A stretch of DNA of 64,000 nt from Halogeometricum sp. S1BR25-6 (lineage in GTDB: Archaea > Halobacteriota > Halobacteria > Halobacteriales > Haloferacaceae). The notes under the pieces were generated by a model, which saw only the letters and a program-made list of their open reading frames with translations, was not told the DNA's origin and made no database searches. This document shows positions 27,255 to 58,594 of this stretch, in pieces. Positions within the stretch are counted from its first letter, which is position 1; every line of letters starts with the position of its first letter. The DNA is taken from positions 62,001 through 126,000 of the forward strand of contig NZ_JAMQOP010000005.1 in assembly GCF_031624495.1 (NCBI RefSeq). The letters run 5' to 3'. The position numbers and the translations under genes were made by a program.

Positions 27255-27502
27255 AGCCTCACCTATTTTCCTGCCGGTCCGCCGGTGGGGTGTTGTGCTT
27301 ATTCTTCGATTACGCTGTTGCCGGGTCAGCTGAACCGGGAACAGTCACCGATCTCAGACTCGGGACATCAACGCATGCCAAAGAGAGTTCCAATCTCAGG
27401 TTAGAATATCGGCACTACAACCGGTTAGCGTTGTCTCTTGGAGATTACTTACATACCCATGTATCTAAATTAGCTCTAATACAAGTTCTACTATCCTATA
27501 CC

Positions 27503-27510
27503 TTAATATA
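27503..27510 (+). promoter_or_regulatory. TATA-like box upstream of the DUF499 gene
   Basis: TTAATATA lies 62 bases before the ATG at 27572, in the 317-base gap after methyltransferase 1. The gap is locally AT-rich and holds no other gene. This placement would give a leader of about 35 bases. Assigned by sequence only. Confidence 0.4.
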
Positions 27511-27571
27511 CAACCGACTATAGTTGGATGTCGGGAGTAACTACTTGTATCGGGGTGGAGTATGCCGAGAC

Positions 27572-30500: not shown

Positions 30501-30823
30501 ACTTCCCCGGTGCCGGATTCCGGGTGCCTGCTGATACCGGGTGGACGTTCAGCGGCTCGTTCACAAGTCCCGCCGATCTCCGCAGTCACTTCGCCGACGC
30601 GGTTGAGGAGCACGACGGCGGCACCCTCTCCCGCGGCACGCTCAGTCTCACGACCCGCGACGGAGGCGTGCTGTCTGAGACCCTCGATCCCATCGTCAAG
30701 AGCACACAGCAGTACATCGAGCTGACACTCGATGCCGGTCAGTCCCACGTGGATCTGGAGCAGCTGTTCGAGCGCCTACCGGACTCGATCACCGAGATCG
30801 AGATCAGGGTCGAGTTCGAATAG
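27572..30823 (+). CDS. DUF499-family ATPase
   Basis: 1083 residues from the ATG at 27572, chosen over a TTG 48 bases upstream. It begins LPQVVGDVLKPSSELFEGDE, the DUF499 N-terminal signature, with a Walker A FYGPYGTGKSHQMV near residue 88 and FFADELEDW (Walker B-like) near 195. The rest is long and helical, with IRDVLRHRLIEP, a DUF499 C-terminal segment and several winged-helix-like repeats. DUF499 proteins occur next to DUF1156 methyltransferases and helicases in phage-defence loci. The ATPase probably acts as a P-loop motor or switch coupled to methylation status. It sits between two DUF1156 genes on the same strand, 317 bases after the first and 125 before the second. Confidence 0.88.
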   Translation: MASKSGTLPQVVGDVLKPSSELFEGDELIKGQIRLYDVESDDKAALEADARRFFDRTLLTEGLGDSLKLLRDARIGEGASNIHEFYGPYGTGKSHQMVAMYHAFNAPEVVAEWADGRIENLEEGLPDEATPIVVSLQMDSDTYEYLWEPFFDELDYELDEDEFEEGGYPGIKTIERAVDDRTVAFFADELEDWFTSLTGKREAANRGFLQALLEATSRTNLFVFVSTLRQDSAVHKILNRQDRVEVNMSNQVDIRDVLRHRLIEPGSIDEGAVRELVDDYISTYAETDHVDLPTGLREEMEHTYPFHPELVSTLKTRYYADVESGATRGMLFLFAKVLVDAYEDTDLITHGDVDAVKYNDELTRINTEHQRPNKAYDDIVDRLDNTNITHGRRIMSTVLLYSLTPGLAEGATRSDIVMGTYRTGERVNDIMVNLERLQGNVYHLWEQDDDHYVIREAENPRSLIKNAARNVNDERAMVELGSAISNLFGPQAYAVGFAEDDFGAVSDNESVKVVISNTEWTHDAVKRVIKNDGAGRQWRNTLVFVQPKDGRTIAPGAEVTGPLAKIRQVLGAEQIIDDDSRDPEIREKVREEQTKDRESLTKLLRQNYGEVLDVDDVLNNFEGRANMELDSFVVEGPVYDAKNIAKWAAADTWDLQTPIWDVARTLFERKDMITIEDLYEAFLRDPSLPIPQSEQDVLSAAREGLEDQPVLAHRESEGFLASVADATADTTLVLAENVEEWTGDDVIESLRSQLVKEGSVDVSSFEHDLFKRKDVRLIGDDPHDVMMTAVARLAREDRYVLVRGTDIVDKPRSGVEIRDISDAETVNSSDVVAAIKEEIGSQGAAAISDVLRTIRQDPTQHLPANHTTDTFKTAIQQLTNDDYTLRVDGEYTDTLGARDVLAVTVVPTLSAGEADRLREYLENREERETFTVEEAQQAAVPGAVKAAVRTFLLRHLGDEEPLRLVIASNGSDDADDYFPGAGFRVPADTGWTFSGSFTSPADLRSHFADAVEEHDGGTLSRGTLSLTTRDGGVLSETLDPIVKSTQQYIELTLDAGQSHVDLEQLFERLPDSITEIEIRVEFE

Positions 30824-30948
30824 CACGACCGACAGGCACAGCCTCGAAACGAACCCGACTCTCGACGTACCGACCCGCCACACAACGACTCACGATACGG
30901 CGGCCCACCACCCGATACGATACACCATCACGATCCAACCTACAAATT

Positions 30949-33612
30949 ATGTCAAGAGAACAATACAACACCAAAGCGGACGAGCGGTTCCAGTACCCAA
31001 TCGAGCGTGGCTTCCCCATTGAGCGGGTGAACGACATCGCCGAGAAGGAGGGGAGCTCGAAGATGCACTACCGACCCACCTCGATGATGCACAAGTGGTG
31101 GGCTCGTCGGCTCGGTTGTGTCTTTCGGAGCATCTGCCTCTATTCGCTCGTTGACAACCCAAAGAAGCTCACCGTCACAGATCCAGACACCGGCGAGAAT
31201 ACACTCGGCGAGTTCGACGGCGGCACCTCGGATATCGAACAGTTGATCGCCGACGTTAACCTGTCCGATCCGGACTCGCTCTGGCCGCTCTACACGAAGG
31301 ACGTCCGCGTCGAGGACAAGTCCGTCCTCGATCCGTTCATGGGTGGGGGCACGACGCTGATGGAGGCGAGCCGGTTTGGTGCCGACGTGACAGGCGTCGA
31401 TCTGAATCCTGTCGCGTGGTTCGTCACCAAGAAAGAACTCGAGGCCGGCGAGACCGACGTCGAGGAGCTGGAGACAGCCTACGAGAACGTGAAGGCCGCC
31501 GTCGCCGATGAGCTACGGTCGTACTACACGCGGTCGTGCCCAAACGGCCACGATCACGAAGCCGACGTGATGTACGAGTTCTGGGTTCGTGAACTTGGCT
31601 GTATCTCCTGTAGCGCGACGGTGCCGCTGTTCAAGGATTACCGTGTCGCCGCTGGCCGGTACGACAACAAGGGTAGCTATTACGTCTACTGTCCAGAGTG
31701 TGAATCGGTCTTCCTCACTGATGACGCTCGGTCCGAGTCCGCCTGCACAGAGTGTAGCCACACGTTCACACCCTCACAGGGACCGGTGAGCCGTGGCGGC
31801 TACTACACCTGCCAGGACTGCGGGCAGAAATACAGCATCACCGACGCAATCGCTGAGGGGCAGTCGTACAACGATCGGCTCTACGCCGTCGAATACTACT
31901 GCTCGCACTGTGATGAGGACGAATCCCACTCGAAGGCGGACGCGAAGAGCTACATCGCAGCCACCGCGGAGGACCGTGAACGCTACCGGAATGCCGCCGA
32001 GACGTGGGCCGAGCGCGAGGACCTACACGGCTACATTCCCAACACAGAGATCCCCCGGGGTGCTATCACCGAGGCGTCATCGATCAGCGGCAACGACGTG
32101 TTCCAGCATGGTTACGAGACGTGGGACGACATGTTTAACGAGCGCCAACTGCTTGCACTCGCGCTTCTACTGGACGCGATCGACGACATCAACGACCAGA
32201 ATCGAAAGGAGTACCTCCTCCTGGCGTTCTCGGACTCGCTGATGTTCCACAACAACTTCACCATCTACAACCGGTCCGGGAACAAGATCGAGGGCGTCTT
32301 CAAGACGAATTCATACAACCCCCAGATGGAGCACATCGAGAACAACGTCTGGGGCTGTGACTACGGTCGCGGCACGTTCTCGGCCACCTGGGACAAGGTC
32401 GTCGACGGCGTTCGGTGGGCACAGGCCCCGACCGAGCGGTATATCGACGAGGATGGCAACACCGCGAAGACGGCCTCGTTCGAGACGCCGCTGGGCGCGA
32501 GCTCCTACACGCTCCACCATGGTGACATGCGAGCCGTCGACCTCGAGGAGACGTACGATGCGGTCATCACTGACCCACCATACTACGACAATATCATCTA
32601 TAACGAGGTGGCAAACTTCTTCTACGTCTGGCAGCGCCAGCTGCTTGCCGACATGTACGAGGCCTTCGAGACGCCACTGACACCCGACCTAGAGTCGATC
32701 GCTACCAATCCTGCACTGGGAAAGGGCGACGAGGACTTCGAGAGAGATCTCGCGCAGGCATTCTCACGCATCCGTGATGTGCTCGATGACGAGGACGGCA
32801 TCCTCGCGTTTACCTACCATCATAAGGGCTCGGAGTCGTGGGGTGAGCTGTTGGAGGCCCTCTGTGATGTCGGATTCGAGATCACGGCGACATATCCCGT
32901 TTCGGCCGACCTCAACAAGTTCATCCAGGGCGAGGCGGTCTCGTTCGACATCATCGTGGTCGCTCGGCCCGCGAGCGAGCGGACTATGATCAGCTGGCGT
33001 GACCTCAAGCGCGAGATCTACAAGACGGCACGGCAGACGCGCCGCAACCTGCAGGAGAGCCGGACGCTCTCACAAGGCGACATCGGCGTCATGGAGATGG
33101 GCGTCTGCTTCCGTGAATATTCAAAGCACCACGACAAGGTTCGGCGTGGCGATAGACTAATGTCCGCCAAGGAGGTAGTCAACGAGATCTACGGAATCAT
33201 TCAGGATGCCAGCGACGTCGGCGCCGTCGACGTCTTCATCGACCTTCTGCGGACAGATGATCCCACGTATGACGACGTGATGAAGCTGTGCCGGGGAACA
33301 AGTGCGAACCCGGAGGAGCTGAAGGAGATGGCCCTCTACGACACTGAGGACCGTTTCGAGCTTGGCACGTGGCAGAGCGATGCGCGGCAGGCCTACATCC
33401 AGGACAAACTGTCGAACGAGCCCGACGAACTGACAGATCTAGACCGGCTGCAGTTCCTTCGGTCCGAGTTCGACCGCGGTGGCCGCATTCAGGACTACAC
33501 AAATAGATGGGAGATCACGCCAGAGCTGATCGACCTGGCCGAGCGCCTCGCTGATGCCACCGGCGATGAGGTCTATCATCGATTACTTGGCGATACCTCA
33601 CTCGGGGTGTGA
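30949..33612 (+). CDS. DUF1156-type DNA methyltransferase 2, intact
   Basis: 887 residues. Order of parts: YPIERGFPIERVNDIAEKEG with MMHKWWARRLG (DUF1156, residues about 15-60), LDPFMGGGTTLMEASRFG (SAM-binding motif I, near 125) with VDLNPVAWF, five CxxC-type pairs (about 185-330) forming zinc ribbons, AVITDPPYYDNIIYNE (catalytic DPPY, near 540), FTYHHKGSESW, then a helical tail. Motif I before DPPY with a long insert between suggests an alpha-class amino-methyltransferase whose insert holds target recognition. In a defence locus it would mark host DNA as self. It is collinear with the frameshifted copy and uniformly GC-rich. Confidence 0.92.
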   Translation: MSREQYNTKADERFQYPIERGFPIERVNDIAEKEGSSKMHYRPTSMMHKWWARRLGCVFRSICLYSLVDNPKKLTVTDPDTGENTLGEFDGGTSDIEQLIADVNLSDPDSLWPLYTKDVRVEDKSVLDPFMGGGTTLMEASRFGADVTGVDLNPVAWFVTKKELEAGETDVEELETAYENVKAAVADELRSYYTRSCPNGHDHEADVMYEFWVRELGCISCSATVPLFKDYRVAAGRYDNKGSYYVYCPECESVFLTDDARSESACTECSHTFTPSQGPVSRGGYYTCQDCGQKYSITDAIAEGQSYNDRLYAVEYYCSHCDEDESHSKADAKSYIAATAEDRERYRNAAETWAEREDLHGYIPNTEIPRGAITEASSISGNDVFQHGYETWDDMFNERQLLALALLLDAIDDINDQNRKEYLLLAFSDSLMFHNNFTIYNRSGNKIEGVFKTNSYNPQMEHIENNVWGCDYGRGTFSATWDKVVDGVRWAQAPTERYIDEDGNTAKTASFETPLGASSYTLHHGDMRAVDLEETYDAVITDPPYYDNIIYNEVANFFYVWQRQLLADMYEAFETPLTPDLESIATNPALGKGDEDFERDLAQAFSRIRDVLDDEDGILAFTYHHKGSESWGELLEALCDVGFEITATYPVSADLNKFIQGEAVSFDIIVVARPASERTMISWRDLKREIYKTARQTRRNLQESRTLSQGDIGVMEMGVCFREYSKHHDKVRRGDRLMSAKEVVNEIYGIIQDASDVGAVDVFIDLLRTDDPTYDDVMKLCRGTSANPEELKEMALYDTEDRFELGTWQSDARQAYIQDKLSNEPDELTDLDRLQFLRSEFDRGGRIQDYTNRWEITPELIDLAERLADATGDEVYHRLLGDTSLGV

Positions 33613-42139: not shown

Positions 42140-42972
42140 CCAGAAACAATCCACACATCAGTCGTAGAAACGCCCTCCGAACAGTGGCAGGTGCGACGCT
42201 CGTAAGCGTGGCTGGCTGTCTGAATAGCGGTGGAAGCTCCGGAACACCCGGTAACGGGACAACCGCCTCAGACAGCGAGGGGCCGCTCAATCGAGTCACC
42301 GTCGAAGGGACGATACTCGTCGTCGAGCTCTTGGCAGAAGCCGATGTCGACCAAGTCAACCTCATCCAGCCGAACGAAGAGCTGTTCGGAACGCGTGACG
42401 TGGCTGCAGGGGCCCAGCAGGTCTCGTTCAAGATCGGAACCGCATACGAGCTTGGTGAGTACCGCGTGGTCGCACTGAAAGGCGAGGAGACAGTCGCAGA
42501 GAGTATCGAGGAAATCAGGCCACAGATCGAGATTCGGGAGATCGGGCTGTATCGAAATAACCCAGACAAACCTTGGGATGAGGTCTATGGAGAGAGTCAG
42601 ACTGATAGGAAAAAGAACGGAGAGGCATTTGTTACAGTGGAGAACACAGGCAGTGGTCCAGATGCTATCGTGGAGCTACAATTTACTGGGGACGTCCCCA
42701 ATCCAATTGAGAATCCTAGGGAAGGTGGGCTGTATGAGACTGAACGAGTGGTAATTCCGCCTGGTGAGACGATCGACTTGTTCAGTAGCTCGTTCCCGTT
42801 TGGGACAGAAACAGCGGACGGAATGGGCTGCTCACCAGATGGCAATAACGGCCAATTCACTGTATCTGTTAGAACACAGGTTAGTGGCGATCAGGTCTCG
42901 AAAACCTACGAAGCCCAATACACTGGTTCCAACGACATGACTAATTGCGAGGTTACAATCACGGAGTCCTGA
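42136..42972 (+). CDS. Tat-exported lipoprotein
   Basis: 278 residues from the ATG at 42136. The N-terminus has a twin-arginine signal (SRRNALRTVAG) and lipobox VAGC with Cys28, so the protein is exported folded and anchored by lipid. A Gly/Ser/Thr linker (GGSSGTPGNGTT) leads to two beta-rich domains, the second with ENTGSGPDAIVELQF and ending in a disulfide-type pair (GMGCSPDG, NCEVTI). It is 2 bases from the next gene. Its position suggests an accessory to the mating or secretion complex. I do not know a specific function. Confidence 0.75.
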   Translation: MTRNNPHISRRNALRTVAGATLVSVAGCLNSGGSSGTPGNGTTASDSEGPLNRVTVEGTILVVELLAEADVDQVNLIQPNEELFGTRDVAAGAQQVSFKIGTAYELGEYRVVALKGEETVAESIEEIRPQIEIREIGLYRNNPDKPWDEVYGESQTDRKKNGEAFVTVENTGSGPDAIVELQFTGDVPNPIENPREGGLYETERVVIPPGETIDLFSSSFPFGTETADGMGCSPDGNNGQFTVSVRTQVSGDQVSKTYEAQYTGSNDMTNCEVTITES

Positions 42973-42974
42973 CT

Positions 42975-44036
42975 ATGGTTGATCTGATTGACGTCGTACT
43001 GGAAGGTGCCAAAGCCGTCGTCGATTGGTTTACCGGTCTGTTCATGGACGGGCTCAGATCGGGGTACGAGACATTGACAGAGGCGATGTTCGGGACACCT
43101 ACTCCAAACACGGACGGAGCATTTGTCTTCGGAGATCCGACGAACGCACCTTGGCCAGCAATTCAAGATGCTCTTGTCGGTGGAGAGATTATGCTCATCT
43201 CTCTTCTACTCCTCGTGATGAGTGTTCAAGGGCGGCACACGATTCGAATCTTCAATATCGGAAGTGCCTACGAGGCCCGAAAAACGAAGAAAACTGCATG
43301 GGTCGGTGCCTTCCTTATCATAACTTGGTACTGGGTTGGGTCTCTGGCCCTCTACCTCGTCGATGGGTTCACTATTGCACTGATGCCAGAGCTCTCCTCG
43401 GTCACAGAGGCTATGCTTGGATATTTAGAGGTGTCAATTACAAATCCCGGATTGGCACTGTTGTTTGCCCTTGTTGGTGGTATTTCGATGTGGGTATTGG
43501 AGGCACTATTCTACATCCGGAAGATTCTCATCTATGTGTACTTGTATGGAATGCCCGTTGCCTTCGCTCTCGCCTATGGGAATATTCCAGTAGTCTCTGA
43601 TATCGCTCTAGGATTCAGTAAGCGGTTTGTCCCACTCACAGTTCTCCCACTACCTGCCGCGATAATCCTCAAAGGCTATGACCTGATTTACGCTGGGGAA
43701 ACGCTGACTCCAGGAACGAGATTCCTCAAATATCTGGTCGCAGCATCACTTCCGCTAATTGCTCTCTACGTAACTTGGAAGACGTTCAGATACGCGACGC
43801 CGCTGACCGCCAAGGTCATGGGAGGAGCGACGAAAGGAGCGGCACTCATCGGTGGCGTCGCAGCAGGCGCGTCCGTCGGTGGTGCCGGCGTCGCGACGAC
43901 TGCGGCACGGTGGGGACCAAAAGCTGCTGCTGGTCACGCTCTCGCTCAGAAGGCCGCAGCACGAGCAGAGACTGGTGACGGAGAGAATAGCACGCCGTCG
44001 TACCGGCGGACTGAGAACGACCCCGGAATCCACTAA
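42975..44036 (+). CDS. Polytopic membrane protein, VirB6/TrbL-like
   Basis: 353 residues from the ATG at 42975, chosen over an in-frame upstream codon because it lies two bases after the lipoprotein stop. About six membrane helices are visible, for example EIMLISLLLLVMSVQ, TAWVGAFLIITWYWVGS, LALLFALVGGISMWVLEAL and ILIYVYLYGMPVAFALA, then an Ala/Gly-rich amphipathic C-terminus (GAALIGGVAAGASVGG). The size and topology match VirB6/TrbL inner-membrane channel subunits of type IV secretion. The assignment rests on topology and operon position, two genes before the VirB4-like ATPase. Confidence 0.6.
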   Translation: MVDLIDVVLEGAKAVVDWFTGLFMDGLRSGYETLTEAMFGTPTPNTDGAFVFGDPTNAPWPAIQDALVGGEIMLISLLLLVMSVQGRHTIRIFNIGSAYEARKTKKTAWVGAFLIITWYWVGSLALYLVDGFTIALMPELSSVTEAMLGYLEVSITNPGLALLFALVGGISMWVLEALFYIRKILIYVYLYGMPVAFALAYGNIPVVSDIALGFSKRFVPLTVLPLPAAIILKGYDLIYAGETLTPGTRFLKYLVAASLPLIALYVTWKTFRYATPLTAKVMGGATKGAALIGGVAAGASVGGAGVATTAARWGPKAAAGHALAQKAAARAETGDGENSTPSYRRTENDPGIH

Positions 44037-44038
44037 CA

Positions 44039-45160
44039 ATGTCGATAGATCAAGACGCAGCCGCACGACGCATCATGGACCAGTTCGGCGAAGAGAGTCG
44101 CATCCCGTACCTCAATATTGAGGAGGGAGACGTCGGCCTACTCATCGCCTTCCCGATTATCGGCCTGTTCATCGCAGGCCTCACGGGGATTGAATCACTT
44201 GCCCTTCCGTTTGTCGTGGGCGGATTCGGGTTTGGCGTTGCTGTCATCTACGTCTCTCCCAACCACCTCAATGCGTGGACCTGGACGAAGAGCATCTATC
44301 GGTACGCCAAACGTCCGCAGATTACGTTTAGTGCCCCAGAGGAGGCAAACGAGAACACGAACGAGACAGAGCGAAATGAGGGCGGGCTCGCGAACTACAC
44401 GCCGTTCAAACCGGACGAGCGAACGCAGGACCTCACGAACGTCAAGCGAGCGTGGCCCGGTGCTGGAGCGGTCCAACGAGAAGATGGCACAATGGAAGCG
44501 TTCATCGAAATCGACCCGGGGAACATGGACTTCGCGATGTCCGAAGACTGGGCGCAGCTCCAGGAAGCGGGCGAAGAGTTCGCCAACAAGGAACTCGACT
44601 CGAAGCTCAAGCTCCATGCGACAACTCGGTCATTCCCAGTAGAACAGATCACCGAGACGATAGAAGAGCGACTCAACGACGAAGACGTCACGCAGAACCT
44701 GATCTTCCGGGAACTCCTCGAGGAGTACCGTGAGACCCGCCCCAAAGAGATGCGTGATCGAGGTATCCAGCAGGTGCGATACTATCTCGGTGTCGAAGTC
44801 TCGCCGCTAGAGGTCTACGATCGATTCCGAGACGAAGGGACACCTGCCGAGAAACTGACGCAGTTCCCCGTTATCGGGTTCCTGTTCAACCCGTTCGTGA
44901 CGCGGCGTGAGGACCTGACGGATGTCGAACGTCGGGCACAGATGTTCGAGAAACTCGACAGTCGCGTCAACGACGTCCGCGCCGAGTTCATCCAGCAAGC
45001 GTCCGGGTGGTCCGCTCGTCGGCTCAGTACGGTCGAACTGTTCGTCCTGAACATGGACTTCTGGAACGGACGAGAGCACGACGCCGAGGAGGCTGAGCAC
45101 GCTGTTCGCGAGCAACCGATCGTCGGTCGCTCACGCCGGGAGGATGAGGTCAGTGCGTAA
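44039..45160 (+). CDS. Membrane-anchored T4SS subunit (PrgI/VirB3-like N-terminus)
   Basis: 373 residues. Two adjacent membrane helices (VGLLIAFPIIGLFIAGLTG and ALPFVVGGFGFGVAVIYVS, residues about 32-75) sit where PrgI/VirB3-like proteins carry theirs. A charged cytoplasmic part follows, with WPGAGAVQREDGTMEAFIEI, LHATTRSFPVEQI and VRYYLGVEVSPLEVY, which resembles the N-terminal domain found in VirB4-type ATPases. I infer a split N-terminal part of the VirB4 machine, whose ATPase is the next gene (17-base overlap). Confidence 0.65.
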   Translation: MSIDQDAAARRIMDQFGEESRIPYLNIEEGDVGLLIAFPIIGLFIAGLTGIESLALPFVVGGFGFGVAVIYVSPNHLNAWTWTKSIYRYAKRPQITFSAPEEANENTNETERNEGGLANYTPFKPDERTQDLTNVKRAWPGAGAVQREDGTMEAFIEIDPGNMDFAMSEDWAQLQEAGEEFANKELDSKLKLHATTRSFPVEQITETIEERLNDEDVTQNLIFRELLEEYRETRPKEMRDRGIQQVRYYLGVEVSPLEVYDRFRDEGTPAEKLTQFPVIGFLFNPFVTRREDLTDVERRAQMFEKLDSRVNDVRAEFIQQASGWSARRLSTVELFVLNMDFWNGREHDAEEAEHAVREQPIVGRSRREDEVSA

Positions 45161-47351
45161 CGTCATCCTGCAAGCGAGTGGCGGTATCCTCGGCCAACTC
45201 ACAGAGTGGCTTCTGAACCCGACGTCGCCCGAAGGTGCGGCGATTTACGCCATACTGGTTGTTACCCTCGTGACCGGTGGCAAACACCTCTGGGGCCGGT
45301 ACACCGACGACGACGAACCGGAAGTCGATTTCTCAGATGTCCTCGACGAGAAGACGCTCAAAGAGGGTCACGTAGAGGGCCAACTCCTCGACGACATCTC
45401 CGAATCCCATAAGACAGTGATTGCGCCGGCAGCCATCGAGTGGGAGACACGAGCAGCTCACGTCGGCGAGCAGTGGACGACGACGCTGTACATTGCTGAC
45501 TATGCCGACTACCCGAACGACGGCTACCTGAGCGACCTCTTCGAGTTGACCGACGTCGAGTTCGACCTCACAGCACACATCACACCGAAGAACCAGCAAC
45601 GGGCGCGGAACGAACTGCAGGACATCGCTAACGACCTTCAGGTCGACGCCGATCTTGAACAGAGCGTCCGGAGTGCGTATCTCCAGGAGCGAGCGAACGA
45701 AGCGGCTGCGACCTACAAGGCCGTCGAGAGCGGCGCGAACGTCTTCGATCAAGGGATGTTCATCACGGTTCGCGCCGACGACAAGGACGACCTCAGGGAC
45801 TCAGTCCAGAAGGTCAAGAGTGCGCTCCGCGATGACCCGGCGAACCTCACACCGAAAACCGCGATCTGTCGGCAGGACCTCGCGCTGCAATCGGCAGCGC
45901 CGATCGGAGATAACGAATTTGGCCGCGAGTCGATCGCCCTCGGTGGTGCTATCGGTGCACTCCTCTCGTCACCGCACAACGCGACAATCCTCGAAGAGGG
46001 TGGGGTCGAGTTCGGTATCCACAAGGACAATCAGAGTCCCGTCGTCATCGACCCGTTTGCCCGTGACAGCGGGTACGCAATGTTCACCGTCGGCGATACT
46101 GGCTCCGGGAAATCGTTCGGCTCGAAACAGAATTTCATCCGCTCGATCGAACAGAGCAAGGATCGCATCGGCATTATTCTTGAACCGCTCAACAACTGGG
46201 CGGGTGTCTCCGAAGCACTCGATGCGAAACGTATCACCGTCGGTGGGACGCTCGGCCTGAATCCTCTGGAGATTCGCCAGACACCCGACCACGTCCAGCG
46301 GGCGATGGGTGAGGATGCGAGTCCGTTCAACGAGAAACTCGACGACGCGATGAGCTTCCTGACGAACTTCTTCGCACTGCGCGGTATCTCGCTCGGGGAT
46401 CGTCGGACGACACTCGAACTCGGACTCAAACGCGCCTACATGCGTAATAGTATCTCCGATGATATATCGACGCACAGTAACCCAAGCCCGACGATTCGGG
46501 AGATGATGGACGTCTTCGAGGACATGGTCGACGAACCGGAGGAGTTCGTCGTCCGGTCCGACGAGGAGGCTGGGAAGATCCGTGAGGACGCGACGTGGCT
46601 TCTGGATCAACTACGCCCCTTCGAGGAAGAGGGTCGCCACGCCAACCTCGGGAAGTCCTCGGAGTTCGACATCCGCGACGAGAAGGTCATCTATCTCGAT
46701 CTCGCCCAGCAGGAGGGCAGCGTCGACAGTAGTACAGCGCTGACGATGCAGTTGCTCATCTCGCTCGTATACGAACGAGCGAAAGAGACAGACAAGGAAG
46801 TCGTGTTCGTTATCGACGAGGCGCGGTACATCATGCAGGACGCCGCGAGTCTAGCGTTCCTCGAAACGGTGTTCCGGCACCACCGTCACCACGACCTCTC
46901 GATCCGACTCGTCACCCAGACGGTCGATGAGTTCTTCGAGCACGCTGAGTCCGAGGCCATTCTTGACCAGTGTGCCGTCAAGCAGTTCCATCGCCTGGAT
47001 GGGATGGACGAGGAATGGGCCGAGGAGTTCGGTCTGAATCACGCACAGATGCGCTACGTACAGGACGCGGTGCCCGGCAACGAGGACGCCGGGTTCTCCG
47101 AGGCGCTCGTCGGTGTCGACGGCGAGTGGCGCGGGATCAAGGTGCAGGCAATGTCCAAGGAAAAGCAAGTTATCGATTTCGACCCGGCTGAGCAGACACG
47201 AGAAACACTGCCCGGTGCTGACGAGGAGGCCGTTACTACTGACGTGCAGCAGTTCCGTGAGGAGCTAGAACAGCAGGCCGCAAGCGGAGAGTCACAGGCG
47301 GTCACTGCGAAACCTGATGGTGGTCAGATGGAGGTGGATGAGGATGCGTGA
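45144..47351 (+). CDS. VirB4-like conjugation ATPase
   Basis: 735 residues; the ATG at 45144 lies inside the end of the preceding gene. One helix (GAAIYAILVVTLVTGGK) anchors the N-terminus. The ATPase core has FTVGDTGSGKSFGSKQ (Walker A, near residue 315), VIYLDLAQQEGSVD, VVFVIDEARYIM (Walker B, near 555) and RLVTQTVDEF. This is the VirB4/TraC arrangement that powers pilus assembly and DNA transfer in type IV secretion. It overlaps the next ATPase gene by eight bases. Confidence 0.85.
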   Translation: MRSVRNVILQASGGILGQLTEWLLNPTSPEGAAIYAILVVTLVTGGKHLWGRYTDDDEPEVDFSDVLDEKTLKEGHVEGQLLDDISESHKTVIAPAAIEWETRAAHVGEQWTTTLYIADYADYPNDGYLSDLFELTDVEFDLTAHITPKNQQRARNELQDIANDLQVDADLEQSVRSAYLQERANEAAATYKAVESGANVFDQGMFITVRADDKDDLRDSVQKVKSALRDDPANLTPKTAICRQDLALQSAAPIGDNEFGRESIALGGAIGALLSSPHNATILEEGGVEFGIHKDNQSPVVIDPFARDSGYAMFTVGDTGSGKSFGSKQNFIRSIEQSKDRIGIILEPLNNWAGVSEALDAKRITVGGTLGLNPLEIRQTPDHVQRAMGEDASPFNEKLDDAMSFLTNFFALRGISLGDRRTTLELGLKRAYMRNSISDDISTHSNPSPTIREMMDVFEDMVDEPEEFVVRSDEEAGKIREDATWLLDQLRPFEEEGRHANLGKSSEFDIRDEKVIYLDLAQQEGSVDSSTALTMQLLISLVYERAKETDKEVVFVIDEARYIMQDAASLAFLETVFRHHRHHDLSIRLVTQTVDEFFEHAESEAILDQCAVKQFHRLDGMDEEWAEEFGLNHAQMRYVQDAVPGNEDAGFSEALVGVDGEWRGIKVQAMSKEKQVIDFDPAEQTRETLPGADEEAVTTDVQQFREELEQQAASGESQAVTAKPDGGQMEVDEDA

Positions 47352-50300
47352 GTATCTCCGCGTCACGCCGACGTCCGAACAGCTCGACTCCGCGGGAATC
47401 TCGCGTGTTCTCGCCAGTCTTCACAAGCTCACGAATACGGGAACGGAAAGCCTCACAGAGAAGCTGAACCCGTTCCACAGTGAAACACCGCCCCGGTTCG
47501 AGTTCCTTGCCCTGAGCGATGGACCGGACGAGCCAGTCGAGTTCTACTACGGCGTCGACGAGAACCTCGACACTTTCGAGAAGCGTCTCCGTTCGATCTA
47601 TCCCGAGACGTTCGATATCGAACGCGTTGACGTCGACGTCGCCTCACGGCTCATCCAGCCAGTCGAGTTCACACGATCGGAGTTCATCGACCACTACGAA
47701 ACAGGGCAACTACAGTACGAATTTGGTCCCGAGGAGCAGCACGATCTCGACGGTGAGGACCAGACAGAAACGTCGGAAACCTCCCCCCTCTCTAACGACG
47801 ATGCAACGGTCCAGAGAGCCACGAATCATCTCATCGAGACAGGGAACACCGCACTTGAACTCGCACCACCGAGTGCAGTTCCCGAAGAGGAACCACTGAC
47901 GACACTCGAAAAGCCAACCGAGACGACGGAGGGAACGATACTCGCTCGACCAACCACCGACGCCGTCTCGCCAGTTGGCGTGCGCTGGTCCGGTTCAGCG
48001 ACCCGGAAGAAGGACTGGATGACGTCGCTGACGCCCTTTGCATCCGGTGATGACGACGACGCAGTGACTGCTGTCGACCAGCCCGGCGCGGCGTTGGCCT
48101 CACTCGTCGACTATCTGATGGAGACAGCGTCGCCTGTGGCATTCCAAGTTGTGTTCGAACGGCGGGCACCCTGGCAGGCCGACGCTGAAGTTCGCAGAGA
48201 GGACCTTCTCGATGGACGGGATACCTTCATCCAAGAATTCATTGGCTCATTCTTCGCGGTCGAAGAGCGACAGAACGGACGCGAGGAGAGACAGCTCCCC
48301 GAATCAGTCGCAAAGCGGATCGAATACATCGACGCGAAGAACCACAACCGGTCGTTTACCGCAAACATCCGAGCAGTGGGCGTTCCAGTTGATAGTGCAT
48401 CCCGCGACGAGCTTGCAGCTCAGATGGACTCCCTTCGCCCTGTGTTCGACCCGATAGACGGTCCCTATTACGAAGTCACGGGCGAACGACTCCGTGCTGA
48501 GGGCTTTCGAGAAACAACGAAGGAGAAGAACGCTCGGTCGGCTCTTCGGCAGCTACTTGATCGAGAAATTGCGGTCGGTCGAGGCAAGACCCGACCGGAT
48601 TTCGTCCTCGGTGGGGCGGAACTCGCGAACTTCGTGCTGGTCCCATCGTCTGAGCAGCTCACAGTAGAAGGAACACGTGGGACTCGCGCTGAACAGCAGA
48701 GCCGGAACCCGCTTCCGTGGCCGAATCCAGACCTTGTTCAACAGTTCCAACAAGGGATGGCGATCGGGTATGCACTCGATGAGAACGGAGCACCCCAACC
48801 GAACCCGATCCGGATTCCGCCAAATCTCCTGACGACGCACTACGGCCGGTTTGCATCGACCGGCGGCGGGAAATCGAAGGCGATCATCAACGATGCGCTG
48901 TCCCTTCGAGAGACAACGGGCGGACCTGTCGTCATCGTCGATCGGAAAGGCGATGGGATGTGCGCGAACTACCTTCGCTGCCACTACGAGCACTTCAGTG
49001 GGTTGGACGACGTCTATCAGTTCCGCGTCCCAGAGACGCTCCCTGCGTTCTCTTTCTTCGATATTCGGCCTGCGCTTGAAGCAGGGCGGAACCGCGAAGA
49101 CGCGATTCAGGATAAGGTCGACCATTTCCACGATATCATGGGAATGGTGATGGGACGCGAGATGTACGGACAAGCGTTCGTCGCCAACGAAATCCTCAGC
49201 TACCTCATCAAGGCGCTCTTCGATGAGGAGTACGGGAACGACGTCTTTGGGCTCGACGACCTCTTCGCGGCGGCACTTCAGATGCAACGTGAGCGAACCA
49301 TCCCACCGGTTTCGGCAGACAATACAAACGTCGAGGAGTCGCTCACGCGTCATTTCGCGAAGGACGACCACCAGTTCCAGGTGTCGATGGACGCGGTCGG
49401 CAACCGCCTCGATAAACTCAGAGAAGACGCGCACTTGCGACGGATCTTCAGTCACGTTCCGGAACAGGACGATGCCGGAGAGTACGTCGACAACCGATTC
49501 GACTTCCGCGAGTTCCTCGACGAAGACATCACAATTCTGTTCGATCTCGGTGATCTCCGTCCGGAAGCCCAGCGGGCCATCACACTTCTGCTCTTGAGTA
49601 ACCTCTGGGATGCGGTGCAGGTGCGTCGACGTGACGGGCAAACGGACTACGAGAAGCTCACCAACCTCATCATTGAGGAGGCGGCACCCATCGCCGCAAC
49701 GAAACTCGTTTCCGAGCAGTTGCTTCCCCAAGGTCGGTCGTTCGGTCTAAGTATGGGGCTGGTGATGCAGTTCCCCGGGCAGGTTCGGAATCGAAGCGAA
49801 CGCGCCTACGACGAAGTCCTCAACAATATCAAGACGAAGCTCATCGGGAATATTTCCATCGAGCGCGACCTCGCTGAGTCGTTGGCCCACGAAGACTTGA
49901 GCCCGACTGACCTCCGCAATCGGATCAACACGCTCCCCAGTGGAGAATGGATTGCGCAACTCCCGAGTCCCTCGTTCGGAGAGACGGGCCCAGCCCCGTT
50001 CTCGGTGAAGCCACTGCCGATCGCACCGGGGCATCCAGAAAGCGACGAGCCGCTTTCTGTCGAGCAGGAGGACCACTTCGAGACCGTGGCCCTCCCACGA
50101 CTGTCAGAGCGAACACAGACCCAGTATGGGCTCACCAACAGCCAGGACACAACAGCCTCATCCGAAGAGGAGAGCTGGGGAAGTGAATCCACAGACACGA
50201 CAGCCACGTTGACAGAACAAACCGATTCCCACGATTCGACGCAATCATCGTTCCTTGGACAGATGTCCACAGACGCACAGTCTCACCCAGGGGACGAAAC

Positions 50301-51153
50301 GACGGGTTCTGACGCCACCGATCGACCGTTTGGAAGTGAAACCACAGCAGATCAAGATACAGAGTTGATGAGCGAGACAGACTCGTCAGTACAAACCGAG
50401 AATGGGTCAACTCCGGTGGAAGCGGGTGGAGTAACTGTTCCGGATGAAGAACTCAGACGGCGTGGGCTCAGCCGCGACGATATTCGGTTCCTGAACTGCG
50501 TCCTCGATGTGATGAACGGTGATTCCCCGGAGTACACGCTCTTGGACACGATGACCTCGTTCAGAGAGCAATTCGATGACGTGGATGTTCAGCGGCTCAT
50601 CGATCAGAATCTACTGGAAGAAGCACCGGCCTGCCGACGGAAGTACTACACTGTGCTCCCTGCAGGGCGCGAATTACTCGGTCAAAAGCTTGCGGTCGGG
50701 CCGGGGCAGGGGGACATTGGAGAGAAAACCCCGCACAAAGTCGGTGTCAAACTCCTCAAACGATGGCTCCAGGATCAGGATGGTGTTGCACGCGTCGCGA
50801 CCTACTACGAATACGACGAGGAGACGGTCTTTGACGTCGCTGCCTTCAACGCTGATAGCGAGTTGGTGTGGGTCGGTGAAGCGGAACTACCGAGCAACAA
50901 TAGACACGCCCCAGTTGAGGACTACGACAAGCTAAGCGATGTTGATGCGAGCGCTGTCTGGGCGTTCAACAAGCGAGAGACAGCAGTAGAGGTTCTCGAC
51001 CGACTTGCTGAGGCCGACCGGATCGAAAGCAGCGTGAGCGGGCGTGCAGCCCGATCGTTCGCAGATATCCGAGATGCAGTCGAGAGCTTCGATGCAGCGG
51101 GCCTAACGACGCTTCGGGGTTTCCATACCCTTGATGGAGAATTCAATTCATGA
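47344..51153 (+). CDS. TraD/VirD4- or HerA-like ATPase with extra C-terminal domains
   Basis: 1269 residues from the ATG at 47344, eight bases inside the previous gene (ATG at 47338 also possible). Residues 1-500 are non-enzymatic with VirB4-like character. The P-loop RFASTGGGKSKAIIND is near 503, followed by VVIVDRKGDG, ITILFDLGDLR and LIIEEAAPIA (Walker B-like), as in TraD-type coupling proteins. A Ser/Thr-rich disordered linker (about 900-1030) leads to a winged-helix region (LRRRGLSRDDIRFL) and an end domain with VATYYEYDEETVFDVAAF and ELVWVGEAEL. That end shows D...E-x-E spacing and could be a PD-(D/E)XK-like fold. It couples by ATGA to the primase gene. Confidence 0.75.
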   Translation: MREYLRVTPTSEQLDSAGISRVLASLHKLTNTGTESLTEKLNPFHSETPPRFEFLALSDGPDEPVEFYYGVDENLDTFEKRLRSIYPETFDIERVDVDVASRLIQPVEFTRSEFIDHYETGQLQYEFGPEEQHDLDGEDQTETSETSPLSNDDATVQRATNHLIETGNTALELAPPSAVPEEEPLTTLEKPTETTEGTILARPTTDAVSPVGVRWSGSATRKKDWMTSLTPFASGDDDDAVTAVDQPGAALASLVDYLMETASPVAFQVVFERRAPWQADAEVRREDLLDGRDTFIQEFIGSFFAVEERQNGREERQLPESVAKRIEYIDAKNHNRSFTANIRAVGVPVDSASRDELAAQMDSLRPVFDPIDGPYYEVTGERLRAEGFRETTKEKNARSALRQLLDREIAVGRGKTRPDFVLGGAELANFVLVPSSEQLTVEGTRGTRAEQQSRNPLPWPNPDLVQQFQQGMAIGYALDENGAPQPNPIRIPPNLLTTHYGRFASTGGGKSKAIINDALSLRETTGGPVVIVDRKGDGMCANYLRCHYEHFSGLDDVYQFRVPETLPAFSFFDIRPALEAGRNREDAIQDKVDHFHDIMGMVMGREMYGQAFVANEILSYLIKALFDEEYGNDVFGLDDLFAAALQMQRERTIPPVSADNTNVEESLTRHFAKDDHQFQVSMDAVGNRLDKLREDAHLRRIFSHVPEQDDAGEYVDNRFDFREFLDEDITILFDLGDLRPEAQRAITLLLLSNLWDAVQVRRRDGQTDYEKLTNLIIEEAAPIAATKLVSEQLLPQGRSFGLSMGLVMQFPGQVRNRSERAYDEVLNNIKTKLIGNISIERDLAESLAHEDLSPTDLRNRINTLPSGEWIAQLPSPSFGETGPAPFSVKPLPIAPGHPESDEPLSVEQEDHFETVALPRLSERTQTQYGLTNSQDTTASSEEESWGSESTDTTATLTEQTDSHDSTQSSFLGQMSTDAQSHPGDETTGSDATDRPFGSETTADQDTELMSETDSSVQTENGSTPVEAGGVTVPDEELRRRGLSRDDIRFLNCVLDVMNGDSPEYTLLDTMTSFREQFDDVDVQRLIDQNLLEEAPACRRKYYTVLPAGRELLGQKLAVGPGQGDIGEKTPHKVGVKLLKRWLQDQDGVARVATYYEYDEETVFDVAAFNADSELVWVGEAELPSNNRHAPVEDYDKLSDVDASAVWAFNKRETAVEVLDRLAEADRIESSVSGRAARSFADIRDAVESFDAAGLTTLRGFHTLDGEFNS

Positions 51154-52034
51154 CGTGGCGACAGGCTACTCGCGAGGAAATCTACGCCTACTACGCCGAC
51201 GAGTTTCCCTCGTACGTCAATCAGATGCCATCGTTCATCACACCGGCTGGCCCGAAACAGTACGCCCTCGCGTTTCGAGAGTCTCATCCCGTGCGGAAAA
51301 ATGAGGTCCCTGCAAAGGACTTCATTCGCCGGGATACACGACAGACGAACGCATCGGGTGAACATACTCACTGCGAATTCGATGAGTTCGAGGACATCGT
51401 GGAGTTCATTCGCCACCCGGCCCGGAATGACCCTCTTGAACGAAGTACGTTCGCGCTCGCTGACCCTGCTCTTCTCGATAAGCCCGATCCGTGCCCCGAC
51501 GCCGTCTACTACGCGCTTGATCACTGGGAGCGCCCGTGGATACTCCTCGTGGATATCGACGCGAAAACGATTGCTCGGAAGCGGGCAGAACGAACGGTAG
51601 CGGACGACGTCGATAATCGAGATACCGAGGATTTCCTCGATGCAGCCGGAATTCGAGCAGCGTCACCAACCGGATATCCCTACGCATTCGAGGACGTCGA
51701 CCGTGCTATCGAGTACGGGTTCGAGGTCCGAGATATTTTCGAGGATGATTTCGACGCTGAGGAGACGATGGTGATGTACAGCGGACAGGGAGTCCACGTC
51801 TACCTGCTTGACACCGACTTGGCCCATCGGTACGACACCAAGAGTCGTGAGGTGCTGAACGACCTCTTGTTGGATACCTATGGCATTCCAATTGATCCGG
51901 TGGTGACCGCAGACCGTCGTCGGGTCGCCCGGCTCCCCTACTCATTACACGCTGACGTCTGCAGTATCGTCCAGCCAATCGACAGCCCGAACTTCGATAT
52001 TCGGACGGCGACACCTGAATTCATCGACTCATGA
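51150..52034 (+). CDS. PriS-like primase catalytic subunit (AEP superfamily)
   Basis: 294 residues. Motif I is ILLVDIDAK (two catalytic Asp) near residue 134. Motif II is MVMYSGQGVHVYLLD near 206, with Ser, Gly and His as in archaeo-eukaryotic primases, and motif III-type ADRRRVARLPYSLH is near 255. These primases make RNA or DNA primers. Its ATG overlaps the coupling-ATPase stop, and its own stop overlaps the next start (ATGA at 52031-52034). It is shorter than cellular PriS and probably primes element or transferred single-stranded DNA. Confidence 0.85.
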   Translation: MTWRQATREEIYAYYADEFPSYVNQMPSFITPAGPKQYALAFRESHPVRKNEVPAKDFIRRDTRQTNASGEHTHCEFDEFEDIVEFIRHPARNDPLERSTFALADPALLDKPDPCPDAVYYALDHWERPWILLVDIDAKTIARKRAERTVADDVDNRDTEDFLDAAGIRAASPTGYPYAFEDVDRAIEYGFEVRDIFEDDFDAEETMVMYSGQGVHVYLLDTDLAHRYDTKSREVLNDLLLDTYGIPIDPVVTADRRRVARLPYSLHADVCSIVQPIDSPNFDIRTATPEFIDS

Positions 52035-53557
52035 GTACTCCTACCCCAGTTGACGACGAGCGCACCGCTTACCAAGTTGCTGCCCTCCCACTCGAGTATG
52101 GGTCGACACGCATCAACCAGCTGTTTACGCGTGGCTACAACCGTTACATCGTCGACGGCGAAGACCAGCCCGACGATCTGTTGAACGATCTCGAACGGTT
52201 CGGAACGGCCGCGTTCAAAGAGGACGTCCGGACCAACGCCGCTGACGAGCCCTTCGTCGACGAGCCAGGGACGCTCGCCGTGCTCGCCACACTAACTGCC
52301 ATCTGCGTCAAGGCACACCCGAAATTCGAGCACGCCCCACCGCGGAAGATCCAAATCCTCTACAACATTCGAGAGCTGTACGTCAACAATCTTGCGTCAC
52401 TCCTCCGAGAATTCGGCGATGCCACCCTCCAGCAAGATATCGCTGAGGTGCTGTACGCGAAGGACACCAGCGGGGAGAGTCCCCACCCCGGTCGTGTCTG
52501 TACAGGCATTACGGAGATGCCTGAGTTCGGAGGTGGGTTGTACCTCGAAATCCCGATGGTTGCTGCCTCCCGGAACTGTCTCGTCTACGACGCGGACAGA
52601 CGTGATGCAGGAACGGAGGATGACAGAGAGATCCTGACGCGAGTAAAGGATAACCGGCTGTACGTTCCTGCCGGTGACTTCGATGAGAAGTATCACGCCT
52701 ATGCGGAGAGGGCATTCAAGAAGCTTCTTCGCGTCCAAGAGGACGGCCTCTCCGAAGACCAGCAGGTGTGGTTGACGACGAACGAGTCAGCAATCACTGA
52801 TCGGATCAACCGTTTCATGGAAGCAGGACACCACGAACGTATTTGGCGAAACTGGGATCAAGGCGAACGAACGATTCGTGTCCTACGGCGGGCGATCAAC
52901 GAGTCAGCCGACGATGTCGTCCAGCAAGATGAGTTCCATACGGCGAAAGAACTCTACAGTGCAGTCACAGCGTACGATACAGAAAACAACTGGGAGGCCT
53001 CGATTACGGACTGGATTTCGAGCCCGAGTAGCCTAGCGAAGACGCTTGCAAACCATCAGTCACATTCGGCGGTCACCATCAAGCGGGATGGGCGCGTCAA
53101 TCAGTATCGCATTGGCCACCCAGGCAGCGGATCGACGCAAATCGATGTCGACGCTATCGAGGACCTGTTTGAGTTGCCCTGCATGGCAAACATGGAGGAA
53201 CGCCTTCACGAGAAGAAACCCGTCCGGAAGGACCTCTACAACTTCGCTCGGATGGTGATGTGGTTGCCGCAATATCAGAACAGCAACCTTGACGAAATCG
53301 TCGCGGACCTCAAAGACGTCTTCTCGCGCTGGCCATGGTACGACGAGCAGGTCACGGACTACCAAATTCGCTATGAATTCACGAATACGATCGACGGGAA
53401 TACGCCGCTCCCAATGAACTGTGACAACGACGATATGCAGCGCTACTGTATCGGGAAGGACCAGTGTCCCTACTCGATCTGGGGGAGTCTCCCCTTCCCG
53501 GATGAGATGTACAACCAAGTGGATGAACACGCCGCTGGTCCCACCGAGCAATTCTGA
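52031..53557 (+). CDS. PriL-like primase-associated protein with Fe-S type C-terminus
   Basis: 508 residues. The C-terminus reads LPCMANMEERLHEKKPV, then RKDLYNFARMVMWLPQYQ, IVADLKDVFSRW, YQIRYEF and finally MNCDNDDMQRYC and KDQCPYSIWGSL. Four Cys with this order and the R-x-LxxFLxxxG-like helix match the [4Fe-4S] domain of archaeal and eukaryotic PriL. The N-terminal 350 residues resemble no family I can name; they may bind the catalytic subunit or the DNA end. It is the last gene of the nine-gene operon and is coupled to the PriS-like gene. Confidence 0.72.
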   Translation: MSTPTPVDDERTAYQVAALPLEYGSTRINQLFTRGYNRYIVDGEDQPDDLLNDLERFGTAAFKEDVRTNAADEPFVDEPGTLAVLATLTAICVKAHPKFEHAPPRKIQILYNIRELYVNNLASLLREFGDATLQQDIAEVLYAKDTSGESPHPGRVCTGITEMPEFGGGLYLEIPMVAASRNCLVYDADRRDAGTEDDREILTRVKDNRLYVPAGDFDEKYHAYAERAFKKLLRVQEDGLSEDQQVWLTTNESAITDRINRFMEAGHHERIWRNWDQGERTIRVLRRAINESADDVVQQDEFHTAKELYSAVTAYDTENNWEASITDWISSPSSLAKTLANHQSHSAVTIKRDGRVNQYRIGHPGSGSTQIDVDAIEDLFELPCMANMEERLHEKKPVRKDLYNFARMVMWLPQYQNSNLDEIVADLKDVFSRWPWYDEQVTDYQIRYEFTNTIDGNTPLPMNCDNDDMQRYCIGKDQCPYSIWGSLPFPDEMYNQVDEHAAGPTEQF

Positions 53558-56938: not shown

Positions 56939-57550
56939 GACACCGTGCCTGAAAGCCCTCGGCTGCTCGGCATCCCGCGACCGCGCGAGACGCAGTCTCG
57001 CTGGCCCTCGTTCGCTGCACTCACGAAGACCACGCTGCGCTCCTCGTGCCTGTGGTGCTTGCGGGGTCGGGGGACGACCGAGACGCCCTCGCCCTTTCTG
57101 AGCCCACCAGGATATCGGCTGTGTCACTGAGCGTCGAGCCCAGTTGAACAGGTTCTTTGTTACGGCACGCCCCGCTCGCCGCTTCCGCCTGTCGGTGAGC
57201 AAGCTCACCGGCGTCCCGCTCACTCCGTTCGCGGGACCTCCGCATCGCTCGCGACCGACCATTCCGGGCGTGCGGGCGCTCTCCGCACCGCGAGCGCCCG
57301 TTCCGGGCTAAAATGTATGTGCCTTCGACGCCAGCGGGTATCCCCCGTCGGTTGCGCCCCTCGCGGGCTTTCGCGTTCCAGCGCTTGGTGCCGCCTGCGC
57401 TGGCGCGCGCCACACAGCGGCGCGCGTGCTCGGCGACAGTCGCCCTGGACACGGTCCCGCGCATCGGGCCGGACACGAGCGGGCATATCCCGCTGGACGC
57501 TCGCTCCGGGCGGGTCGGCGCACGGTGCTGGTTGAACGTCTCTCTTCTGA

Positions 57551-57601
57551 GCGCTCTCGCTCGCGCCCACAGGGCGCTCGCGAAGGCGCGAGCGAGAGCG
57601 C
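57551..57601. repeat. 17-bp perfect inverted repeat
   Basis: GCGCTCTCGCTCGCGCC at 57551-57567 pairs exactly with 57585-57601 across 17 bases, the strongest hairpin in the leader region. Confidence 0.75.
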
Positions 57602-57636
57602 GTAGATGGGTCTGTCGGTCGTTGTAGTACGAAGAA

Positions 57637-57658
57637 CCGCGATGTTTGGGCATCGCGG
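57637..57658. repeat. 8-bp hairpin before the RPA-like gene
   Basis: CCGCGATG (57637-57644) pairs with CATCGCGG (57651-57658) across a 6-base loop, 40 bases before the start codon. Confidence 0.65.
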
Positions 57659-57697
57659 TGTCGGGCGCGTGAGCGCCTTCAGGTCTTAGTGAGACCA

Positions 57698-58594
57698 ATG
57701 TCAAGTAAGAACGTAACCAGTCAAGTAGTTTCGGTCGATGAACAGGCATTCGAGAACGCGGACGAAGCGGCGGTCGACGAGGACGGCTTCGAGGTCGTCG
57801 ACGAGACGCCGGCGTTCCAGGCGACGGTGCAGATGGAGACGCAGGCAAAAGTGGATGCAAACCACCCGGACGGGATGGTTGAGACCAGTGATGAGCGGAT
57901 CTACGGCGCAACGCTCGAACAGGAAGAGCGTATTCGAGCGCGGGAGGCCGAACTGGAGCGCATCAGTGCCAAAGCAGAATTGGGGACGCAGGAAGGACGG
58001 GAGAGACGGACGCGAGATATCGCGACGAAGCGGAGTGCTAAGCGGCGTGCTGAATTCCAGAAGCGGGCCGCGAGCGTGGACCCATGGGCCGACCCGGAGC
58101 GAGATGATCCTCGTGCAGAACTTTCGCAGGAGCAGTTGGCGGCGGTGAACACACAGTCGATGCGGCTGGCGGAGAAGGTGGAGGGTTGGTCGCGAGCGGC
58201 GATTGGGCGGCGACTGGGTGAAGCCGTAGCCGGTGGAAAAGACCTGATGAGTGCGGTCATCGAGGTGTTCGAGGAATTGGAGACGGCGCCGGGACAGGTG
58301 GTTCCGATTGGGAAGCTCGAGGAGGTCAATCGCAAGGAGGTAAGCATCGAAGGGCATGTCGAGACGCTGTGGGATAGTGACTCGCCAGCCATCGCTCAAG
58401 TTGGGCTGATCGCAGACGACAGTGGGAAAACGAAGGTAACGATCTGGGAGAAGTCGAATGCCCCGTGGGTCGAGGAAGGTGAGCAGGTGCGCATTCACGG
58501 AGCGGCACGGAACTGGTACGAGGGACGCGTCTCACTGGCCGTCACTGGGTGGTCGACCCTGCATTTCCCTGAGCGCGGTCGGTGGTGGGAGTAG
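57698..58594 (+). CDS. OB-fold RPA-like ssDNA-binding protein
   Basis: 298 residues from the ATG at 57698 (a GTG nine bases earlier is in frame but less likely). The N-terminal 150 residues are acidic and helical (EQEERIRAREAELERISAKA). Then IGRRLGEAVAGGKDLMSAVI and a C-terminal OB fold (VSIEGHVETLWDSD, IAQVGLIADDSGKTKVTIW, VRIHGAARNWYEGRVSLAV) as in RPA. It binds single-stranded DNA in replication or repair and, from memory, is common on haloarchaeal plasmids. A T9 run just after the gene is the likely terminator. Confidence 0.85.
   Translation: MSSKNVTSQVVSVDEQAFENADEAAVDEDGFEVVDETPAFQATVQMETQAKVDANHPDGMVETSDERIYGATLEQEERIRAREAELERISAKAELGTQEGRERRTRDIATKRSAKRRAEFQKRAASVDPWADPERDDPRAELSQEQLAAVNTQSMRLAEKVEGWSRAAIGRRLGEAVAGGKDLMSAVIEVFEELETAPGQVVPIGKLEEVNRKEVSIEGHVETLWDSDSPAIAQVGLIADDSGKTKVTIWEKSNAPWVEEGEQVRIHGAARNWYEGRVSLAVTGWSTLHFPERGRWWE

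Follow-up and report, generated by a model that had tools for sequence, protein, structure and literature searches.

A conserved, hairpin-rich non-coding element joined to the start of RPA-like and TFB-like genes in haloarchaeal conjugative elements

The locus and its hairpins

The window, by which is meant the whole 64-kb stretch of DNA analysed here, contains an operon of type IV secretion genes and, 3' of it, a non-coding element rich in hairpins that runs up to the start codon of an RPA-like gene (Table 1). The element begins 11 nucleotides past the stop codon of the gene upstream, and the small genes lying between it and the primase-associated gene resemble by eye an RHH/PIN toxin-antitoxin pair, with Pfam matches below the cut-off. 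In the case of the RPA-like protein, the AlphaFold prediction had a mean pLDDT of 46.6, and the model was set aside.

Table 1. Positions of the element, its parts and the neighbouring genes in the window
Feature	Position	Strand	Remarks
TrbL/VirB6-like gene	42945-44036	+	PF19590, 1e-134
VirB4/TraC-like gene	45144-47351	+	
Large ATPase	47317-51153	+	weak HerA/DUF87 similarity
PriS-like primase	51150-52034	+	
Primase-associated protein	52031-53557	+	NF038197, 9.3e-257
Conserved hairpin-rich non-coding element	56950-57697	+	~740 nt (start approximate); from conservation and alignment
Hairpin E	57273-57300	+	9 bp perfect; variable, between conserved ATTCCGGGC and GTTCCGGGC
Long-range helix P2	57331-57496 (57331-57341 with 57485-57496)	+	covariation; compensatory changes
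Hairpin F	57404-57426	+	8 bp perfect
Hairpin D	57551-57601	+	17 bp perfect; sequence almost invariant
Hairpin A	57636-57659	+	9 bp perfect, loop of 6 nt
Hairpin B	57664-57677	+	GGCGC(GTGA)GCGCC
Terminal hairpin T	57682-57696	+	GGTCTT(AGT)GAGACC; ends 1 nt 5' of ATG
Coding start conserved with the element	57698-57747	+	~50 nt, synonymous sites included; common to TFB-linked copies
RPA-like gene	57698-58594	+	298 aa; C-terminal OB fold (PDB 2kbn, E 1.5e-7)

The segment at 56939-57697 had been described as free of genes and as holding at least five perfect hairpins of up to 17 bp, far more than expected. The excess is real, as there are four perfect hairpins that do not overlap one another and have arms of 8 bp or longer, compared with a mean of 0.52 and a maximum of 3 in 300 dinucleotide shuffles. 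The figure of five applies from 7 bp, where eight hairpins are found (mean of 1.63 and maximum of 6 in 300 dinucleotide shuffles), and is one too many at 8 bp. The longest arm is indeed 17 bp, in hairpin D, against 11-12 bp for the longest in any shuffle. When the window is divided into segments of 759 nucleotides, the two richest in hairpins (5 and 4, with a segment mean of 0.41) both fall here; the GC content of 57001-57500 is 70%. The segment also proved gene-free, since substitutions among relatives lack 3-base periodicity in each of five blocks, ruling out a coding region within the element.

An alignment of 36 upstream regions consists of long conserved blocks interrupted by optional hairpin modules, each of which is either present or absent as a whole, and the length of the element in relatives is mostly 540-870 nucleotides (median of 651 nucleotides for 122 copies). 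For instance, the position of hairpin E is occupied in relatives by hairpins of different sequence. Within hairpin D lies an inner hairpin (GCGCCC/GGGCGC) whose formation is partly incompatible with that of the 17-bp stem; both are conserved, and the stem and its competitor could constitute a two-state switch. It was also observed that TCGGTCGTTG (57615-57624) and TCGGTCGATG (57731-57740) are repeats of each other, and that the highly conserved CGACCGACC (57251-57259) could, judging from complementarity, pair with either of them.

Distribution and position relative to start codons

Of the 391 Halobacteria genomes sampled, 279 match the element at E up to 0.001, and these represent 73 of 86 genera; 168 plasmid records of PLSDB match as well. 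All 60 similar plasmid records among the matches listed bear haloarchaeal names, and in a sample of the phylum the element was present in 30 of 246 genomes, each within the source's own order. Two laboratory strains have copies, Halobacterium salinarum NRC-1 at 146382-147078 of pNRC100, ahead of VNG_RS12910, and Haloferax mediterranei on plasmid pHME132. The source genome has four, one of them split. A search with an 18-mer also matched a few bacterial records, which were judged to be chance. A viral origin was rejected, as the single IMG/VR contig matched by the 18-mer was negative in a search with the element profile. A known RNA family is likewise ruled out: the best match in Rfam release 15 scores 22.6 bits against a gathering cut-off of 92. 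No earlier report of the element was found in the literature covered, which included parts of the H. salinarum atlas (PMC10134880) and of a vesicle paper (PMC10927574), placed supplements outside its scope, and in part returned few or off-topic matches; the table rows covered from a paper on H. mediterranei sRNAs (PMC5852579) give loci other than the element.

The element lies directly upstream of the gene in 145 of 147 distinct RPA-like loci, even at 35% protein identity, a count in which some of the 145 are partial element matches; before deduplication, 110 RPA-like loci (L041-L070 included) had been picked by protein match only. At the two loci without an element match, L089 and L149, the final bases of the element are still present. 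Conversely, among the 20 genomes listed as lacking the element, 19 show no RPA match stronger than E 3.8e-10, and in the exception (G152) the RPA-like gene sits at a contig edge. Seen from the element, 267 of 270 matches complete at the 3' end (308 loci) terminate at a reading frame, and the 226 distinct proteins encoded downstream comprise 212 that are RPA-like, 12 that are TFB-like with a TFIIB repeat, and two short frames resembling neither. The existence of TFB-linked copies rules out a partner RNA specific to RPA. Between TFB-linked and RPA-linked copies, identity averages 0.756 in the element and 0.467 in the gene bodies.

Conservation does not stop at 57697 and extends to approximately 57747, inside the RPA-like gene. 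In both families, some 50 nucleotides of the coding start are conserved, third positions included (for instance, in the RPA-like genes, the last bases of GTT, GAT and GAA), and the 3' border of the element is thus placed within the gene. The RPA-like and TFB-like proteins (57698-57747 here, and the TFB genes of L291, L294, L302 and others) have a short N-terminus in common, MSSxN...VSVDEQ in one and MSSTSF...SSVEQ in the other, apparently as a consequence of the first codons being carried by the element. The constant position of the element ahead of two gene families speaks for a cis-regulatory role, in which it would govern expression of whichever gene is joined to its 3' end (RPA-like or, in some cases, TFB-like), probably by turning it on.

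Base pairing and the strand that folds

The original prediction, which named the absence of conserved structure in relatives as its refutation and covariation analysis of homologous regions as a check, was supported on this point, as conserved, compensated pairing is present in relatives. Across the seven named helices there are 58 compensatory changes, a total to which helix D, out of register in that count, contributes none, compared with 0-6 when the partners are slid. With helix D in register, there are 4 changes from one Watson-Crick pair to another, 6 to G-U and 9 to A-C. A phylogeny-aware covariation test written for this analysis (122 sequences, 660 columns after removal of those with less than 50% occupancy, 20 null alignments) returned 21 pairs of columns with E up to 0.05, every one in the vicinity of 57319-57348 and 57481-57491. 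For the alignment, 15 of the 147 loci were set aside beforehand as broken or cut and 10 more as redundant; locus L055 was left out for having too short an upstream sequence. The best pair, 57337-57490 (GC in 59, TA in 40 and CG in 23 of 122 sequences), is part of P2, the sole helix with significant pairs in the test.

The terminal hairpin, directly 5' of the ATG, takes the form GG-NNN-loop-NNN-CC-A, and stems of at least 5 bp occur in 61 of 116 distinct tails, as opposed to a mean of 4.6 and a maximum of 12 in shuffles. The sequence of the stem evolves fast while complementarity is maintained, and compensated pairing is clearest in this hairpin. The 116 tails include 28 distinct stems of at least 4 bp. 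In about a quarter of the tails the scripted search detected no such hairpin, which is therefore regarded as optional. The length of its loop varies among relatives, and this favours a folded single strand over a double-stranded operator.

Which nucleic acid folds, and on which strand, is a separate matter. In the strand-neutral helices, Watson-Crick pairs gave way to G-U in 168 cases and to A-C in 173, and the G-U preference expected of a structured RNA on the plus strand is absent. The same script, applied to RNAs from the same organisms, gave G-U to A-C ratios of 60:20 for 30 SRP RNAs and 51:26 for 30 RNase P RNAs, a disparity that makes a plain structured RNA doubtful. RNAalifold energies point the same way, with nearly equal values for the two strands of the element (-338.8 and -336.6) and distinct ones for SRP RNA (-255.9 and -214.3). 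In the RNA folding of homologues that had been suggested as a check, the strand energies are nearly equal and many of the RNAalifold helices were not kept, so the whole-element fold of the two strands was dropped as a model. Individual hairpins differ in polarity, as hairpin A favours G-U (21:6), as expected of the plus strand, whereas hairpin B (G-U to A-C, 0:18) and hairpin T (1:17 among distinct tails) favour A-C, as the minus strand would.

These observations bear on the main rival explanation, a long structured mRNA leader, which would be transcribed with the gene, by read-through or from an internal promoter, and whose folds, chiefly the hairpin 1 nucleotide before the AUG, would either set translation or be cleaved off to yield a leaderless mRNA. 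The constant distance to the ATG, the conservation into the coding start with its third positions, the compensated terminal hairpin, the polarity of hairpin A, the mostly GTGA loop of hairpin B, which is of the GNRA type, and the RNA fold of the plus strand (z of -2.30, 20 shuffles) are all in keeping with such a leader. The lack of an overall G-U preference and the near-equal strand energies, both unlike the RNA controls, argue against it, as does composition, in that T exceeds A in the element, unlike in SRP and RNase P RNA. Long structured mRNA leaders resemble the element in having a conserved fold 5' of the start codon and in serving several gene families; the element differs in its length and in its pairing statistics. 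Haloarchaeal mRNAs mostly have no leader or a short one. On balance, an mRNA leader is a possibility to be taken seriously, if a doubtful one.

A further reading in terms of RNA, that of a large and structured non-coding RNA, independent in itself but transcribed together with the gene that follows, is very unlikely. The size of the element and its modular optional hairpins would suit such an RNA, and the element is more conserved than the gene (identity of 0.776 versus 0.706, with the element ahead in 44 of 60 pairs drawn at random). GOLLD and ROOL, large ornate RNAs of mobile elements, are similar in size, in optional hairpin modules and in their association with mobile DNA. They differ in that the element is fused to a start codon, and two distinct gene families downstream, the absence of a wobble preference or otherwise RNA-like pairing and the lack of an Rfam match all weigh against this reading. 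Of the regulatory RNA that was originally proposed, the cis-regulatory part is supported by the conserved compensated structure and by the constant position ahead of both gene families, and it is the word RNA that the pairing statistics call into question.

Conjugative setting and possible modes of action

The original prediction did not anticipate the conjugative setting of the element. Among the 150 TrbL matches listed, 75 have the element on the same contig, and of the 69 nearest TrbL-element pairs within 40 kb, again among the matches listed, 68 are on the same strand, 67 of them also with the element 3' of TrbL at 12-37 kb. The element and the type IV secretion genes thus form a linked group of fixed order, as in the operon of the window, with roughly one copy per transfer module among the matches listed. 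Named plasmids have the same island, together with ArdC-like and further TFB genes. The wide conservation, the adjacency to the start codons of two unrelated gene families, the compensated pairing and the collinearity with type IV secretion genes together indicate that the element is very probably a leader that belongs to the backbone of haloarchaeal conjugative elements and acts in cis on gene expression, whatever the level of its action.

The same setting might be expected of a double-stranded or nicked DNA site, such as a transfer origin, a replication origin or a partition site, that lies by chance before RPA-like and TFB-like genes. A hairpin-rich, non-coding sequence in about one copy per module, collinear with the transfer genes and paired without strand preference, would answer to this description; fusion to a start codon with conservation into the reading frame, the two gene families downstream and the variable loop of the terminal hairpin would not, and such a site is accordingly judged unlikely. 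The replication origin and the recombination site suggested at the outset were not borne out either, though broken copies reveal frequent invasion by other DNA. In several genomes, many 5' fragments of the element stop near GACCGACCATTC, beyond which come foreign genes (RHH antitoxin-like, TnpB and HTH), and the split copy of the source genome (G000:C5:190567-196194; L004, L005 and L073) is interrupted by approximately 3.7 kb. The interior of the element is an insertion hot spot, often invaded by other DNA. These fragments and the split copy are what a mobile or recombination-prone DNA repeat with no role for the downstream gene would leave, but intact copies throughout the genera sampled retain their structure, spacing and orientation, making it most improbable that the element is mainly such a repeat.

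At what level a cis-acting leader would operate is suggested by comparison with Frpo/ssi. In bacterial conjugative plasmids, Frpo is located directly upstream of ssb genes, according to one study (PMC11541004). The likeness extends to a hairpin-built non-coding element directly before a gene for a single-strand-binding protein in a conjugative element, to the presence of several co-oriented copies, and to toxin-antitoxin and ArdC-like genes nearby (PMC11541004). As for folding as a single strand with pairing maintained, the covariation, the compensatory changes and the terminal hairpin show the corresponding property here. There are also differences, in that the element is about twice as long as Frpo, for which regions of 50-350 bp were screened in that study (PMC11541004), is archaeal with no promoter boxes recognised (by eye in its interior), also precedes TFB genes and continues into the reading frame. 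By analogy, the reading favoured here is that the leader may take up its fold in single-stranded DNA on entry of the plasmid into a new cell, an interpretation that is quite possible and stops short of being probable.

Under such a scheme, the element would act as a folded single strand, namely DNA newly arrived in the recipient cell, and the folded DNA would serve as a promoter, a priming site or both. The outcome would be early production of the RPA-like single-strand-binding protein and of the initiation factor TFB, in the manner of Frpo/ssi. A more specific and more tentative version is that of an archaeal single-stranded-DNA promoter and priming element, which might recruit the host transcription or primase machinery such that the plasmid's single-stranded-DNA-binding protein and TFB would already be produced while the second strand is still unfinished. 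If the element acts on single-stranded DNA, it would be, to our knowledge, the first such promoter known in Archaea. For archaeal conjugation more generally, it offers a defined DNA for tests of strand, timing and template, both in DNA production and in establishment in the recipient.

The arguments for action on an entering single strand come from the cargo, the wobble statistics, the analogy with Frpo and the co-orientation of copies. Among the matches listed, RPA-like copies are co-oriented on 20 of 28 contigs, compared with 11.9 expected (p 0.001), and on 17 of 25 contigs when at least 20 kb apart (p 0.006), whereas the control, Orc1/Cdc6 genes with contig C1 left out, is co-oriented on 6 of 19 contigs with 6.7 expected. 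Co-orientation could have other causes, which weakens its support for this reading. Of 176 cases, only 20 have a TATA-like motif in the 110 nucleotides that precede the element, which was counted in favour of action at the DNA level, but no archaeal promoter motif was recognised by eye inside the element, and this counts against the single-stranded-DNA form. So do the inconsistent wobble polarity of hairpin A as opposed to B and T, and the conserved synonymous sites at the gene start, which fit translation equally well. A recognisable relaxase is absent from 33 of 36 such genomes, the source genome included, which counts against single-stranded transfer; the family is present in the other three. 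On this point, the parts covered of one account of archaeal conjugation (PMC9905601) state that archaeal relaxases are not recognised and that detailed studies of the mechanism are lacking, and put forward a proposal in which HerA-NurA makes the transferred single-stranded DNA without a relaxase.

Two further observations concern the plasmids themselves. On L369 (CP050019.1, 29138-37078), a 54-kb Haloarcula plasmid, genes for a relaxase and a type IV coupling protein lie approximately 5-7 kb from a TFB-linked element, which makes this plasmid helpful for locating a transfer origin. In the window, 24963-33612 contains NCBIfam matches to DUF1156_antiphage and DUF499_antiphage, both below the cut-offs, along with a DUF1156 methylase, and this region is likely an anti-phage system aboard the conjugative plasmid.
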